A stretch of DNA of 64,000 nt. Source: Devosia ureilytica. Its GTDB lineage: Bacteria > Pseudomonadota > Alphaproteobacteria > Rhizobiales > Devosiaceae. The notes under the pieces are model-generated. The model worked only from the letters and a program-made list of their open reading frames with translations, was not told where the DNA came from and ran no database searches. The stretch is taken from the NCBI RefSeq assembly GCF_024273195.1, contig NZ_JAMZCU010000008.1, positions 1 to 64,000 on the forward strand. Direction: 5' to 3'. Numbering within the stretch: the first letter of the stretch is position 1; every line of letters begins with the position of its first letter. Shown here piece after piece: positions 2,119 to 7,747 of the stretch. The translations under genes and the position numbers were made by a program.

Positions 2119-3039
2119 ATGGCGGCCGACACACTTTACGACATCGTGGATCCGCGCTTTGCGCGCAAAGTTCTGGGCAGTGCGCGGCTGGAGGAGCTGC
2201 ATACGGGGTGTCGCTGGACGGAGGGGCCGGTTTGGTTCTCCGACCATGACTGTCTCTATTTTTCCGATATTCCGAACCAGCGGGTGCTGCGGTATGTGGC
2301 GGCGGATAATTCGGTCTCGACCTATCTGTCGCCGTCCAATTTCGCCAATGGGCATACACGTGACCGCCAGGGGCGGTTGATTTCGTGTGAGCACGGGACG
2401 CGGCGGGTGACGCGCACGGAGGCCGATGGGTCGATCACCGTGCTGGCCGACCGTTTCGAGGGCAAAAAGCTCAATTCGCCCAATGACGTGGTGGTGACGT
2501 CGGATGGCTCCATCTGGTTCACCGATCCGAGCTATGGGATCATTTCGGACTATGAGGGTTTTGCATCGCCGCAGGAACAACCAGTCCATGGCGTCTATCG
2601 CATTGATGGCCAGAGCGGCGTAATCACCCTGATGGTCGGGGACTTCGTGCAACCCAATGGCCTGGCCTTTTCCCCTGACGAAAGCCGCCTCTATATCGCC
2701 GATTCAGGGGCCAGCCACGATGCGGACGTGCCCCGGCATATCCGCGCCTTCGAAGTGGTGGACGGCGGCGAGGGTTTGAAGGACGCGGGGCCGTTTGCCG
2801 TGATCGACAATGGCATCCCCGACGGGTTCCGCGTCGACAGCGATGGCTGGGTCTGGTGCTCGGCAGGCGATGGGGTGCAGGTATTTGACCCGGAAGGGAC
2901 GTTGGCGGGCAGGATTTTGGTGCCGCAGCGCGTTTCGAACCTGACCTTTGGTGGGCCGCGGCGGAACCGGCTGTTCATCACCGCCACGACCTCGCTCTAT
3001 GCCATTTACGTCAATGCGCGGGGTGCGCAGACTCCTTGA
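2119..3039 (+). CDS. SMP-30/gluconolactonase/LRE family hydrolase
   Basis: A 306-residue six-bladed beta-propeller protein of the SMP-30/gluconolaconase/LRE family, which contains calcium- or zinc-dependent lactonases of sugar and uronate pathways. Typical blade motifs are visible: TEGPVWF near residue 33, LNSPNDVVV with the metal-binding Asn-Asp, WFTDPSYG, QPNGLAFSPDE and DGFRVDSDGWVW. There is no signal peptide, so it is probably cytoplasmic. The ATG follows GGGAGG at good spacing. Its last 29 bases overlap the end of the convergent DoxX gene. The substrate cannot be told from the sequence, and no sugar pathway genes lie next to it. Confidence 0.9.
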   Translation: MAADTLYDIVDPRFARKVLGSARLEELHTGCRWTEGPVWFSDHDCLYFSDIPNQRVLRYVAADNSVSTYLSPSNFANGHTRDRQGRLISCEHGTRRVTRTEADGSITVLADRFEGKKLNSPNDVVVTSDGSIWFTDPSYGIISDYEGFASPQEQPVHGVYRIDGQSGVITLMVGDFVQPNGLAFSPDESRLYIADSGASHDADVPRHIRAFEVVDGGEGLKDAGPFAVIDNGIPDGFRVDSDGWVWCSAGDGVQVFDPEGTLAGRILVPQRVSNLTFGGPRRNRLFITATTSLYAIYVNARGAQTP

Positions 3040-3514
3040 GGCGGCTGGCGAACAGAGCGCCGAGCAGGCGATCGGCGGAGAGCGTCCCGCCGCCATAGAC
3101 CAGCAACGTCAGTGCCATGGCGAACCAGGGCAGGTGGAAGTTGACGAAACCATCGGGGATGGTGAGCTGGATGATGATGGTCATGGCGAAGATGCCCAAG
3201 GCGGCAAAGCGGGTGCCAAGGCCCAGTACCAAGAGGATCGGCAGGACGATCTCGCCCATGCCGGCGAGGAACGCCATGGCCAGTGGCGCTGGATAGGCGA
3301 AGGCCTGGCCAAAGATATGCAGACGGAACTCCTGCTCAAAGAGATAGCGGGCGCCTGAGGAGAGGTTGAGAAAGCCATCCCACTTGGTCAGCCCGGAGCG
3401 CCAGAAGGGAATGGCCAGTGCCACGCGCAGGGCCAATAGCGGCACGGCGCTGGGGACGGCGGCAAGCAGGCGGTCGGCACGGTCGACAAGACCGACAAGG
3501 CGCTCGGTGATCAT
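3011..3514 (-). CDS. DoxX family membrane protein, last gene of the bufferin operon
   Basis: A 167-residue integral membrane protein with about four hydrophobic segments (near residues 20-40, 78-98, 102-120 and 127-148) and DoxX-type sequence such as LRVALAIPFWRSGLTKW and GMGEIVLPILLVLGLGTR. Its start overlaps the bufC stop by four bases (ATGA), so the two are translationally coupled. DoxX proteins accompany many bufferin operons. Their role there is uncertain; a redox or quinone-linked membrane function is inferred from other DoxX proteins. The 3' end overlaps the convergent SMP-30-type gene. Confidence 0.88.
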   Translation of the reverse strand: MITERLVGLVDRADRLLAAVPSAVPLLALRVALAIPFWRSGLTKWDGFLNLSSGARYLFEQEFRLHIFGQAFAYPAPLAMAFLAGMGEIVLPILLVLGLGTRFAALGIFAMTIIIQLTIPDGFVNFHLPWFAMALTLLVYGGGTLSADRLLGALFASRLKESAHPAH

Positions 3515-4272
3515 CGGGAAAGCTCCTGTTGCGGCGCGGCAAAGGCGCCGAGGCCGGCAAGGCCAACCAGCGCCGAGCCGGGGTCAAAATCGGGATGGGT
3601 GGCAAATACGGCGTCGGCAGCCGCGCCCAGTGTCAGGCCGTCTGCCAGGGCGCGCAGCAGTGCAGCGGCCGCGGGCGGGATAATGGTGAGGCGCACATCG
3701 GCCTGGGGCCGGGTCAGAAGCACATGTTCGGTGCCCGATTGTTTTGGTGGGACAAAGGGGACTTGCTGATGCGCCGACCAGATCGAGCCGACCGGATAGG
3801 CAGAGCTGATCAGCCGGGCCGCCGGGGCCAGAGCCAGGCTCAGGTCAGCCAGCGTCTCCGGGGCCATGGCGGCGAGACCGGTCGGGGACAGGCCCCCGAT
3901 GTCGGCGGCGTTGTAGCTGTCGGACCAGGCGGCCTCGAGGCGGGCCAGGTCGGGCAGATAGGGGAGCTCGGATGCGGGCGGAAAGCCGGCGATGAAATCG
4001 GCAAAGCTGTCGCCATAGTGCAGAAGCACCGGGGTCGTGGGCTTGGTCTGGCCCACATGGAGCCTTGCCATGCCCGCAAAGAAATCGTCGCCCACGACCA
4101 TGCGGGTCACGGGGAAACGGGCGGCGAGCGCGGCGGTCAGGCTGACATGGACATTGTTGCGATAGACCGCGAAGCGTTTGGCGTCGGTTGTGCCGCGCGG
4201 CGACACCAGCCCGGCCGGCACTGCGCGGGTGGGGTCGGTGAGGGCGGCGACGAATTGCGCCTCGTCAGTCAT
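3511..4272 (-). CDS. bufC: BufC/HvfC-type partner protein of the MNIO enzyme (DUF2063)
   Basis: A 253-residue protein whose first 95 residues match the DUF2063 'putative DNA-binding' domain: [17 protein letters not shown], then [13 protein letters not shown] and [14 protein letters not shown]. In characterised MNIO systems the protein beside the DUF692 enzyme acts as a recognition or partner subunit that brings the precursor peptide to it, and DNA binding has not been the outcome. The C-terminal part is expected to resemble a RiPP-recognition fold, which I could not verify by eye. The start overlaps the bufB stop by four bases and the stop overlaps the DoxX start, giving a tightly coupled cassette. 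Confidence 0.88.
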
Positions 4273-5126
4273 GATGCCAACCGCTGCGCCGGAGCCGCGT
4301 CGAGCACGGCGTCGACCAGCCGCACTTCATCCATGAGCACGTCGAACGCGGGCACGTCATTGTCCCATTCGATCAGGGTCGGCAGCGGACCAGTGCGGGC
4401 AATGGTGTGGCGATAGAGCGCGAACACATCGGGCCGAACGCGGCTGCCATGAGCGTCGATCAGCAGACGATCACCGGCATCGTCAGTGGTTTCATCATAA
4501 CCGGCGAGATGGATTTCGCCGACATGGTGCATGGGGAAGCGGTCGATATAGGCGACGGGGTCAAGCCGGTGATTGACCGCCGAAACCATGACATTGTTGA
4601 CGTCGAGCAGCAGGCCGCAGCCGGTGCGGGTGGCGATGGCGTCGAGGAAATCGACCTCGTCGATGGTGCTTTGCGCGAACAGCACATAGGTGGAGGGGTT
4701 TTCGAGCAGCATCGGGCGCCCAAGCGCCTGCTGGACCTGATCGACATGCGCGACGACGCGATCCAGCGTCTGCGGTGTGTAGGGCACCGGCAGCAAGTCG
4801 TTGAGGTAGCCTTCATCGTGGCTGGACCAGGCAAGGTGTTCGGAGAAGGAGGCAGGCTGGTAGCGGTCGTTGAGCGCGCGCAGGCGTTCGAGATGATCCC
4901 GATCGAGCGGGCCTTGACCACCAATGGAGAGACCGACGCCGTGGAGGGACAGGGGGTAATTTTCGCAGATGGCCTCGAGGTAGCGGTGCGGCGGACCGCC
5001 CTCACCCATGTAGTTTTCCGCATGCACTTCAAAAAAGCCCAGGTCGGGTTGATCGGCAATGATCTGGGCATAGTGCTGGGGCTTGAGACCAAGGCCCGGG
5101 CGGGCCGGCAGCGCTGGAAACGACAT
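4269..5126 (-). CDS. bufB: BufB: multinuclear iron oxidative enzyme (MNIO, DUF692)
   Basis: A 285-residue TIM-barrel protein of the DUF692/MNIO family, whose members use two or three iron atoms to modify cysteines in ribosomal peptides. Candidate metal and active-site residues line up with the family: His62 in LHGVGLS, Glu96-His97 in SEHLAW, Glu142-Asn143 in LLENPS, Asp175 and Asn177 in LLDVNN, His186, Glu204 and His206 in GEIHLAGY, Asp224 and His226 in DAHG, and Glu253 in LIEWDND. Relatives in bufferin operons convert BufA cysteines to thiooxazoles. It follows bufA by 54 bp, with a hairpin between them. The start follows GGGAGG. Confidence 0.94.
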
Positions 5127-5149
5127 GGAAACCTCCCAAGTTGGAAAGA

Positions 5150-5171
5150 CGGGAGGCCCGTGAGCCTCCCG
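5150..5171 (-). terminator. Attenuating hairpin between bufA and bufB
   Basis: An 8-bp perfect stem, CGGGAGGC (5150-5157) with GCCTCCCG (5164-5171), encloses a six-base loop. On the minus strand it is followed by TCTTTCC, a weak U tract, and then by the bufB ribosome binding site. This arrangement would let most transcripts stop after the precursor gene and some continue into the enzyme genes, or would protect the bufA 3' end. Confidence 0.65.
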
Positions 5172-5180
5172 TTGGAGCGG

Positions 5181-5489
5181 TCAGCTAGCCATGGGCAGAT
5201 CACGGTCGAGCGCGACGAGCGAACCCATGCGATCGCCATCGAGCATCATGGTTTCACAGGTGCCGGCGGGAACGGCTTTCCAGGCATTGCCCTGGTAGTC
5301 GATGGTGGAGGTTCCGGCGCAGGTGGTGCCGGGGCCGGCGGCGCAGTCGTTGGCGCCGGCAAGAGCCACGCCAAAGCACTTTTCAGTGGCGGCCATGGCG
5401 TCGCCGCCCATGGCATCCTGTGCGATGGCAACGCCACCCAGAGCAGCAGTGAGCGAGGCGGCAAGGGCGAAGGTGGTCAGGCGGTTCAT
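5181..5489 (-). CDS. bufA: BufA1-type bufferin precursor (DUF2282), secreted metal-binding peptide
   Basis: A 102-residue precursor with a signal peptide (residues 1-23, cleavage after AIA) and a small core holding four cysteines at 38, 49, 57 and 78. Their spacing ([22 protein letters not shown]) matches the DUF2282/BufA1 family. In characterised relatives, cysteines of the core are turned into thiooxazoles by BufB and the exported peptide binds copper in the periplasm. The ATG at 5489 is preceded by GAGGAG; a longer frame reaching 5555 lacks a signal peptide at its start and is unlikely. The C-terminal 20 residues after Cys78 are acidic and cysteine-free. Confidence 0.93.
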
Positions 5490-5536
5490 TGAATTCTCCT
5501 CATGTTGGGAACGCTCCAGGTTCCGACATGAGGCCA

Positions 5537-5562
5537 TTCGCCAGGCTGGGCCCAATGTTACA
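5537..5562 (-). promoter_or_regulatory. SigF-like ECF promoter of the bufferin operon
   Basis: On the minus strand TGTAACA (5556-5562) is followed after 16 bases by CGAA (5537-5540), 48 bp ahead of the bufA start. Caulobacter SigF, an ECF sigma factor answering chromate and related stress, uses GTAACC and CGAA elements, and its targets include DUF2282/DUF692 operons. The match here is GTAAC-N16-CGAA. No sigma factor gene lies in this window. Confidence 0.6.
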
Positions 5563-5601: not shown

Positions 5602-5632
5602 AAAAGGACCGACACCCCGGAGGGCATCGGCC
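5602..5632 (-). terminator. Terminator of the PRC-barrel gene
   Basis: Read on the minus strand, an imperfect hairpin GGCCGATGCCC/GGGGTGTCGGTCC is followed by TTTTGTTATT. It lies 37 bp past the stop of the PRC-barrel gene and upstream of the bufA promoter, so it insulates the two units. Confidence 0.7.
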
Positions 5633-5668: not shown

Positions 5669-6058
5669 TCAGATCCAGTAAGGCGGAACACCGTAATAAT
5701 CGTAGACGCGCTGGCCGTTTTCGGCGTTCCAGAAGCTTTCGTCTTCCTTCTCATAGCGCGGTGCGCCTTCGAGCTGGTCCTTGCTGATATCGACACGATA
5801 GCCGCCCAATTCGGGGTCGTAGTCGAGCTTGGACCAGGGCAATGGATAGTGATCATGGCCAATGCCAAGGAAGCCGCCGAAGCTGAGCACGGCGTAGGAT
5901 ACCTGCCCGCCGCGCTTTTCGACGAGAATGCGCTCGATAGAGCCGATATGGTCGCCGTTAAGGTCGTAGACCTTGGTGCCTTCAACCTTGTCGGAGGCGA
6001 TCAGATCGTGCGTTTCCTTGACGTCGGCTGTAGCGACGCGATTGTCATCATAGGCCAT
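5669..6058 (-). CDS. PRC-barrel domain protein
   Basis: A 129-residue soluble protein with one PRC-barrel domain: residues 8-80 contain the SDKVEGTKVYDLNGDHIGSI stretch typical of the fold, and the C-terminal part is an acidic, aromatic-rich tail ending PPYWI. Such proteins are widespread in Hyphomicrobiales and often stress-induced, but their role is not established. The ATG at 6058 follows AAGGAGGACC, a very strong site. It is not in an operon with the bufferin genes, since a terminator and a separate promoter lie between. Confidence 0.85.
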   Translation of the reverse strand: MAYDDNRVATADVKETHDLIASDKVEGTKVYDLNGDHIGSIERILVEKRGGQVSYAVLSFGGFLGIGHDHYPLPWSKLDYDPELGGYRVDISKDQLEGAPRYEKEDESFWNAENGQRVYDYYGVPPYWI

Positions 6059-6133: not shown

Positions 6134-7747
6134 TCAGGCCACCAGGCGCGGGCGGCTTTGCGGCCGGGGGCCATGCTCGCCCAGATAGGCCACGAAGGCG
6201 TCGATCAGCAATGGCCTTGAAATGCCATAGCCCTGGGCGAAATCAACAACGCCGGTCGCCTTGAGCGCTTCGAGGCGCTCATTGGTTTCCACACCTTCGA
6301 CGACCAGTGATCGCCCGGACGCCTGCACCAGATCGATGGCGTGATCGAGCATGCGCGCCATCACGGAATGATTGGGCGCCATGGCGAAGGAGCGATCCAG
6401 CTTCACCCCATCAATGGAGAGGGCCGCCAGATTGTGCATGGACGAATAGCCGGCGCCGAAATCGTCGATATAGACCTTGAGACCTGCAGCGCGGAGGCGT
6501 TCGATTTCCACCTGGGCGGTTTCGGGGCTGATTTCAGCCGTCTCGACGATCTCCACCACCACATCGAAGGGCGAGCCATCGGTGAGAAAGGGCGCAAAGA
6601 TGGGCACGAGTTGCTCGGCGTCCAGGTCTTGCGGGAAGATGTTGAAATTGATCTGGAGCCGCATGTCCCGGGGAAGCCGGGCCACGAGATCAGCATAGGC
6701 ATAGGCGACCACCAGGGCGGTGAACCGCACGGTCATGCCATGCCGCTCAATAATGGGGAGGAACCTATCGGGCGGCACGATGGTGCCATCGACATCCTTC
6801 CAGCGGGCGAGGACTTCGCAGCCTGTTACAACGCCGGTCTTGAGATTGAGCACAGGCTGGTAGGCACAGACTACCGAACCCTTTTCAAGGCGGCGCAGGA
6901 AGCGGGCCTCGAATGACCAATAGCGTTCAATCAGCAGCTGCAATTGCTGGGCGACCCAGGCGGCGAGGACGGCGGCGACAAGCAGGATAACGCCGACCGT
7001 TGCCCAGCCGAGGCCGAACAATTGTGTCAGATAGCTGCGCCCGGCAATGCAATGGATGCCGCCGCTGTCGCAGGAGAGCTGATAGAAGACGCCTTTGAAC
7101 ACCGAGGCCAGGGCCGGCCCTGTCGTCTTGAGGGCCTCGGCGTACAGTCCGGCTTCGCCGTTACGATGCATCCACAGCTCATCATTGAAGCGGAACACCA
7201 GTTCCTGATCCATCCAGCGCGGGCCAGTGTCTGGCAGCGGTTGGGGCGGCACGATCAAGGCAACATTGCCCCGTTGGGCCAATGTGCCGGTCATTCCCTC
7301 AAGACCGAGAAATTTCAGGTCAAGATCGATCCAGAACGCCATGGCGAAAGGATTGTCGGGCACAATATCAGGGTTGCCCAGCATGATGGGCTGGACCAGG
7401 CGGCCAGAATTGACCGAGCACAGCACGACGCCATTGGGCGCATAAAGCAGTTCGTTGATGCCATCGGGGAGGAAGGCAATGCGGCGCAGCTCATCGAGAT
7501 ATTCGGGCGAGCAGGCCGGTTGAGTCAGGCGCCGGTCCATCTCGTCGAAAGTGGACAGGACATTGGTGCGCAGGCGCTCGTAACCCGCCAGACTGCGTTG
7601 CGTCTCGGTGCGCATATTGATGGAAACCTGCTCGGCAACCACCCAGGTGGCGACAGACAGCATGGCAGCAAATGCGAGGACCCAGAGGGCCAGTCTCAGA
7701 CCACGATCATGTGTGCCAGCGATCAGGAGGCCGACAATCCGGCTCAT
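6134..7747 (-). CDS. Cyclic-di-GMP phosphodiesterase with CSS-motif sensor and EAL domain
   Basis: A 537-residue membrane protein. A first transmembrane helix (about 20-42) is followed by a periplasmic sensor (about 45-240) with two cysteines in the CSP and CSV positions of CSS-motif domains, then a second helix (about 245-270) and a C-terminal EAL domain (about 290-525). The EAL catalytic set looks complete: EVLARW (the EAL-signature equivalent), NFN in QINFNIF, VEIVET, the metal-binding IDDFGAGYSS, KLDRSF and VVEGVET. It should hydrolyse c-di-GMP in response to periplasmic redox or disulphide state, as in PdeC-type enzymes of E. coli (inference). It is monocistronic. Confidence 0.92.
   Translation of the reverse strand: MSRIVGLLIAGTHDRGLRLALWVLAFAAMLSVATWVVAEQVSINMRTETQRSLAGYERLRTNVLSTFDEMDRRLTQPACSPEYLDELRRIAFLPDGINELLYAPNGVVLCSVNSGRLVQPIMLGNPDIVPDNPFAMAFWIDLDLKFLGLEGMTGTLAQRGNVALIVPPQPLPDTGPRWMDQELVFRFNDELWMHRNGEAGLYAEALKTTGPALASVFKGVFYQLSCDSGGIHCIAGRSYLTQLFGLGWATVGVILLVAAVLAAWVAQQLQLLIERYWSFEARFLRRLEKGSVVCAYQPVLNLKTGVVTGCEVLARWKDVDGTIVPPDRFLPIIERHGMTVRFTALVVAYAYADLVARLPRDMRLQINFNIFPQDLDAEQLVPIFAPFLTDGSPFDVVVEIVETAEISPETAQVEIERLRAAGLKVYIDDFGAGYSSMHNLAALSIDGVKLDRSFAMAPNHSVMARMLDHAIDLVQASGRSLVVEGVETNERLEALKATGVVDFAQGYGISRPLLIDAFVAYLGEHGPRPQSRPRLVA

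Follow-up and report, generated by a model that had tools for sequence, protein, structure and literature searches.

A 64,000-nucleotide stretch of the Devosia ureilytica genome (contig NZ_JAMZCU010000008.1, positions 1 to 64,000; hereafter the window) carries the four-gene bufferin set bufA-bufB-bufC-doxX on its minus strand at 3011-5489, as the original prediction had proposed. We consider it very probable that this is a canonical Buf1-type bufferin operon, a further example of a known system, and this assessment covers the reading as a whole, including the predicted chemistry of the peptide and the regulon to which the operon is assigned. Earlier work has described the bufferin families with their gene set, as well as the sigma factor and NrsF genes present in Buf1 clusters (PMC12452194), and the gene order found here, bufA-bufB-bufC with a DoxX gene, is that of the Buf1 operon. 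The finding adds, in Devosia, one more intact copy of a widespread copper-buffering operon of the ribosomally synthesised and post-translationally modified peptide (RiPP) type; among the papers listed by a literature search on MNIO, bufferins, DUF692 and DUF2282, none mentioned this genus.

Homology to bufferin families, on which the prediction depended, was found in profile searches, which place all four genes in the Buf1 set. BufA matches Pfam DUF2282 (PF10048) at 85.6 bits against a cut-off of 22.4, BufB matches MbnB_TglH_ChrH at 355.4 bits (cut-off 25), BufC matches DUF2063 (PF09836) at 79.7 bits over residues 5-94 (cut-off 27.2), and the DoxX protein matches DoxX at 62.1 bits (cut-off 23.6), so that the DUF692, DUF2063 and DoxX identities first assigned by reading are borne out. 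The NCBIfam model MNIO_BufB (NF050167) is matched by BufB at 389.4 bits, above its cut-off of 310. All four reading frames are intact, and the four-base overlaps that had been noted are real (bufB/bufC, 4269-4272; bufC/doxX, 3511-3514), with bufA standing apart from bufB by 54 bases. The four cysteines claimed for BufA at positions 38, 49, 57 and 78 are present and invariant in relatives, being unvarying in 22 aligned sequences and in 82 BufA sequences, as is most of the surrounding core. A chance grouping of these genes is unlikely because bufB is the sole MNIO gene in a search of the genome, and because the 17 genomes with a bufA match, out of 75 in the genus, are also the 17 with an MNIO match.

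BufB keeps His, Glu, Asp and Asn positions, as the prediction had noted; they align with those of the MNIO structure 3bww and, for part of the set, with those of MbnB. The AlphaFold model of BufC has a mean predicted local distance difference test score (pLDDT) of 94.4, and Foldseek returned three matches in all at E <= 0.001, namely the TglI chains (8hci, 8hi7) and NGO1945 (3dee), a gonococcal protein described as DUF2063 plus RRE (PMC13097082). Other RRE proteins (TbiB1, McbB) matched weakly, at E 1.8 to 4.5, and a comparison of BufC with PDB sequences gave no match. The RRE half of BufC is assigned from its fold likeness to TglI and NGO1945. For BufA, the PDB sequences yielded one match (E 0.63), and the predicted structure, with a mean pLDDT of 69.5, was poor and was set aside.

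In studied bufferins, the modification falls on the central cysteines, while a disulphide joins the outer pair (PMC12452194), and pairs of MNIO and DUF2063 proteins form thiooxazoles (PMC13097082). For Microbulbifer, thiooxazole formation is described tentatively, and the genes went undetected under copper (PMC12538549). From such relatives we infer thiooxazole formation and copper binding by this BufA and, by the same analogy, export, a disulphide, sigma dependence and induction of the operon. BufA would be synthesised with a signal peptide; its N-terminus shows a basic start, a hydrophobic stretch and A-I-A, a Sec-type pattern judged by eye alone. A complex of BufB, as an iron-dependent MNIO oxidase, with its RRE-bearing partner BufC would turn Cys49 and Cys57 into thiooxazoles in the cytoplasm, and the modified peptide would leave by way of Sec. 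A disulphide between Cys38 and Cys78 would form, and the mature peptide would chelate copper in the periplasm, with DoxX as a presumed accessory membrane protein.

A promoter-like site stands ahead of bufA and is conserved. It has the form GTAAC-N16-CGAA, is separated from the bufA start by 47 bases, and is similar to both the SigF promoter of Caulobacter, GTAACC-N16-CGAA (PMC3511200), and the consensus of the extracytoplasmic function (ECF) sigma factor group ECF16, (T/C)GTAAC-N17-CGAA (PMC8315932), and the EcfF motif of Bradyrhizobium permits a spacing one base shorter, as at the bufA site (PMC3420878). In a test region reaching from 60 to 330 bases upstream of the codon for the first Cys, GTAAC-N16/17-CGAA was found at 19 of the 21 bufA loci of the genus (N16 in 15, N17 in 4), whereas the reversed motif occurred at none of the 21 and the opposite strand carried the motif at one. 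The boxes stay while the spacers vary among close relatives, in which the site is kept. Among 80 named loci, of which three (L159, L178 and L182) were unparsed in this test and in the tail comparison below, the motif was present in 8 of 12 with a linked sigF, as against 3 of the 65 other parsed loci. We favour transcription of the bufA operon from this putative ECF16 (SigF-type) promoter.

The corresponding regulator would be encoded elsewhere in the genome, where a sigma factor gene (L024:4845-5399) adjoins an NrsF-family anti-sigma gene (L024:5396-6034); the pair is unlinked to the bufA operon. NrsF matches PF06532 at 171 bits (cut-off 26.8), and the Oxidored_molyb, cytochrome b561, PMSR and SelR families of the other proteins are likewise confirmed by Pfam. 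The cysteines of NrsF include Cys129 and Cys179, in addition to Cys26; C129 and C179 are named as the anti-sigma cysteines of Brucella AbcS (PMC8315932), a correspondence made by position number and spacing and not by alignment. The sigF-nrsF genes are divergent from a pair encoding a cytochrome b561 and a molybdopterin oxidoreductase (G000:C14:597049-600033, which is L024:3050-6034), and sigma-F-type sites point both ways between the two pairs.

Across the genome, 27 sites of the form GTAAC-N15 to N17-CGAA were counted versus 154 for a backwards-read control pattern, and since the control is the commoner, site number alone proves nothing. All 27 sites were inspected. Six fall 9-171 bases ahead of a gene of interest here, namely sigF, the MsrQ-like gene, msrA, two msrB genes or bufA, and an open stretch of at least 200 codons covers 18 of the other 21 sites compared with one of these six. 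A site precedes each of the two msrB genes in the genome but only one of the two msrA genes. Among relatives, within 500 bases before the domain match, the motif precedes msrB at 17 of 21 loci in NrsF-positive genomes versus 1 of 9 in NrsF-negative ones (Fisher p 0.0006) and msrA at 13 of 22 versus 0 of 8 (Fisher p 0.004), values that overstate the association, given that the genomes are related and that the discovery genome is itself among those sampled for msrA, a caveat that belongs with the objections gathered below. The reversed motif was found before none of these 60 loci, which comprise 30 msrA and 30 msrB loci taken as the best-scoring one per genome from more than 140 matches listed per family; the msrB paralogue sampled differs between genomes. 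G012, with an NrsF match under the cut-off, was counted as NrsF-negative, and some NrsF-negative genomes (G042, G070) are incomplete. NrsF exceeds the Pfam cut-off in 53 of the 75 genus genomes, including all 17 that carry bufA (Fisher p 0.0017, likewise an overstatement for related genomes).

Most likely, then, the operon is part of one stress regulon joining copper buffering to methionine-sulfoxide repair. A stress that reaches the NrsF cysteines would free the sigma factor, which would transcribe bufABC-doxX together with the MsrQP-like, MsrA and MsrB genes when metals or oxidants act on the cell. What the regulon link adds is modest and consistent with published ECF16 systems; a literature search within one collection of papers, for the word bufferin together with methionine sulfoxide and ECF sigma factor, returned no work joining the three. 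The presence or absence of NrsF over 75 related genomes offers a natural comparison for asking whether bufferins and methionine repair form one stress programme.

The closest known system is the bufferin 1 operon of Caulobacter vibrioides/crescentus (CC3254-CC3257), which has DUF2282, DUF692, DUF2063 and DoxX genes in identical order, likewise with a SigF-type promoter and a co-regulated MsrP-type gene (PMC3511200, PMC8224329). Unlike in Caulobacter, sigF-nrsF is unlinked in D. ureilytica and the spacer between the -35 and -10 boxes is one base shorter; moreover, the promoter form also occurs on one msrA and two msrB genes, whereas the Caulobacter msrA homologues are reported as lacking an expression difference (PMC3511200). 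In Sinorhizobium meliloti, another genus, the ECF16 sigma factor RpoE7 targets SMb20527-SMb20530, whose proteins are called orthologues of CC3254-CC3257, but no Msr gene is among the targets named in the passages concerned (PMC6180224); this bufferin-type operon showed no induction by H2O2, cadmium or chromate (PMC6180224). EcfF/OsrA of Bradyrhizobium and BcrS/AbcS of Brucella share the promoter type, an NrsF-family anti-sigma factor and Msr targets, yet no bufferin operon is among the targets named in the relevant passages (PMC3420878, PMC8315932).

Several observations weigh against the proposed promoter and regulon. The bufA site reads GTAACA and not GTAACC, and its spacer is one base below the Caulobacter consensus. 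Two of the 21 genus bufA loci (L019 and L020) are without the motif, and outside the genus only a minority carry it: 8 of 30 class loci, where the opposite strand gave 3 and the reversed motif 1, and 11 of the 77 named loci that were parsed, where these two controls gave 7 and 0. NrsF scores 118 bits against the NCBIfam NrsF equivalog, under the cut-off of 300, and the molybdenum protein scores 84.8 bits against the MsrP equivalog, under the cut-off of 207, for which reason "MsrQP-like" is the proper term. The second msrA gene of the genome is not headed by a site, and among loci of NrsF-positive genomes the motif is missing from 9 of 22 for msrA and 4 of 21 for msrB. One of the remaining 21 sites (L190; G000:C2:12022-12046, minus strand) is sigma-F-like as well and precedes, by 195 bases, an apparently unrelated open frame of 442 aa.

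The same evidence can be arranged differently, with the operon serving mainly in oxidant defence: reactive chlorine or another oxidant would be sensed by the NrsF cysteines, and the thiooxazole peptide would mainly buffer other metals or oxidants. The promoter form common to the msrA, msrB and msrQP-like genes fits such a role, as do the responses of ECF16 systems to hypochlorous acid (HOCl) in Brucella (PMC8315932) and H2O2 in Bradyrhizobium (PMC3420878), and Caulobacter SigF answers chromate and cadmium too (PMC3511200). However, copper induces the corresponding Caulobacter regulon, which includes two bufferin-type operons and MsrPQ, and the sigF mutant is copper-sensitive (PMC8224329); Caulobacter bufferin 1, moreover, chelates both Cu(I) and Cu(II) (PMC12452194). 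We regard a chiefly oxidant-directed function as unlikely.

The identity and the activity of the operon could also be doubted. Hvf/oxazolin and fontiphorin (EGKCG) clusters share an MNIO with a DUF2063 partner, and often DoxX, with the operon described here (PMC12452194, PMC13097082), and BufB, BufC and the DoxX protein do match the HvfB, HvfC and HvfX models. All three matches nonetheless fall below the cut-offs (244 of 360, 55 of 142 and 55 of 80 bits, respectively), whereas MNIO_BufB is matched above its own. These clusters differ in precursor family, and BufA is a DUF2282 protein with four cysteines and no EGKCG repeats, which makes an Hvf/EGKCG (oxazolin) type cluster scarcely credible. 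A decayed or silent operon, out of use, might be suspected from its patchy occurrence, limited to 17 of the 75 genomes of the genus, and from extra copies in relatives that look broken, with an internal stop in the bufB match of G020 (L073/L020) and a split match in G002 (L074/L075). Against this, the four frames are intact here and both the invariant residues and the promoter-like site are kept, so decay is highly improbable. The Buf1 operon with its ECF16-type control remains the preferred reading, and its features are listed in Table 1.

Table 1. Features in and around the bufferin operon, in window coordinates
Feature	Position	Strand	Basis or remark
bufA, bufferin precursor, 102 aa	5181-5489	minus	DUF2282 core, Cys38/49/57/78; signal peptide by eye
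bufB, MNIO (DUF692) bufferin maturase, 285 aa	4269-5126	minus	Pfam, NCBIfam, residue alignment
bufC, partner protein (DUF2063 + RRE-like), 253 aa	3511-4272	minus	Pfam, AlphaFold/Foldseek likeness
doxX, DoxX-family membrane protein, 167 aa	3011-3514	minus	Pfam, NCBIfam
Putative sigma-F (ECF16)-type promoter, GTAACATTGGGCCCAGCCTGGCGAA	5537-5561	minus	-35 GTAAC 5557-5561, -10 CGAA 5537-5540
5'-UTR hairpin, inner stem GGAAC/GTTCC	5499-5532	minus	Just ahead of Shine-Dalgarno; inner stem kept in relatives
bufA-bufB intercistronic hairpin, 10-bp stem, 4-base loop	5149-5172	minus	Not called a terminator
Terminator-like site	5607-5632	minus	Upstream, beyond the end of the PRC-barrel gene
PRC-barrel gene	5669-6058	minus	Ordinary upstream neighbour, outside the operon
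EAL/CSS-motif gene	6134-7747	minus	Ordinary upstream neighbour, outside the operon

The C-terminal tail of BufA had been put forward as a 20-residue acidic extension that might depart from studied bufferins. The tail after Cys78 is in fact 24 residues long, with five acidic and two basic residues and an RDLP-like ending, and such an ending is common in the family. It was found at 20 of 21 genus loci, at 70 of the 77 parsed named loci, a figure biased upwards by ranking on likeness to the query, and at only 6 of 30 class loci, which were ranked by how well they matched the Pfam model; a GS motif is kept in 27 of those 30. Tails past the last cysteine span 11 to 52 residues across the family in this comparison, which was made without the studied Caulobacter peptide itself. 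Given this length range and the frequent RDLP-like ending, the tail is ruled out as a novelty.

In the clade of D. ureilytica BufA the mature bufferin is rich in methionine. Of the seven most similar sequences, five, D. ureilytica BufA included, have six methionines in 78 residues. Mean content is 6.8% across these seven, as against 2.7% for 14 further loci of the genus and 2.8% for another 107; single sequences outside the seven-member clade reach seven or eight methionines. A methionine-rich BufA might act as a double buffer, in which thiooxazoles and methionines hold Cu(I), methionines absorb oxidant, and co-induced Msr enzymes recycle them. If this were true, copper and hypochlorite defence would form one cycle; we rate the idea as a long shot.

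RNA features around bufA were also considered. The inner stem of the hairpin in the 5' untranslated region (UTR) pairs in 98.6% of cells across 14 aligned relatives and is nearly invariant, and owing to this near absence of variation, covariation cannot test RNA pairing. A longer outer stem, which includes part of the Shine-Dalgarno sequence, is kept only in some relatives and is paired in 57% of cells, and RNAalifold predicts the inner stem alone. A translation switch that sequesters the Shine-Dalgarno sequence was therefore dropped as a candidate. Fold z-scores of ten bufA UTRs range from -2.59 to 0.01, with -2.32 in D. ureilytica, and the only Rfam match to the 5' UTR, mir-598, is far under the cut-off and on the other strand, and was taken as chance.

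The intercistronic hairpin between bufA and bufB has a fold z of -1.1 over the 75 bases folded here, and values below -2 were reached at no more than 9 of the 21 loci of the genus and 49 of the other 107. In some relatives, the stem sequences are quite different. This hairpin might allow more peptide to be made per enzyme. The terminator-like site upstream fits a separate bufA transcript only weakly, as two such sites were found compared with 1.9 expected by chance.

Beyond the genus, DUF2282 was detected in 100 of 289 genomes of a class-wide sample. The 80 named DUF2282 loci, searched with single D. ureilytica sequences and in some cases stopping at contig ends, gave a BufB match in 79, a BufC match in 75 and a DoxX match in 47; one of them, L106 (Devosia algicola), is probably the same gene as L016 (G002) in the genus set. 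Arrangements vary within the genus. Both sigF and nrsF adjoin bufA in G025 (L015), and in G020 (L020) an nrsF gene, with no sigF detected, adjoins the second bufferin copy, with an upstream site off by one base. In G030, a genome with two bufA matches and one MNIO match, locus L012 has bufA followed by a doxX match, and no bufB or bufC match was found in the locus. In a plasmid collection, DUF2282 occurred in 250 records (60 from Escherichia) and BufB-like proteins in 355 (73 from Escherichia), 129 of the latter 355 being predicted conjugative.

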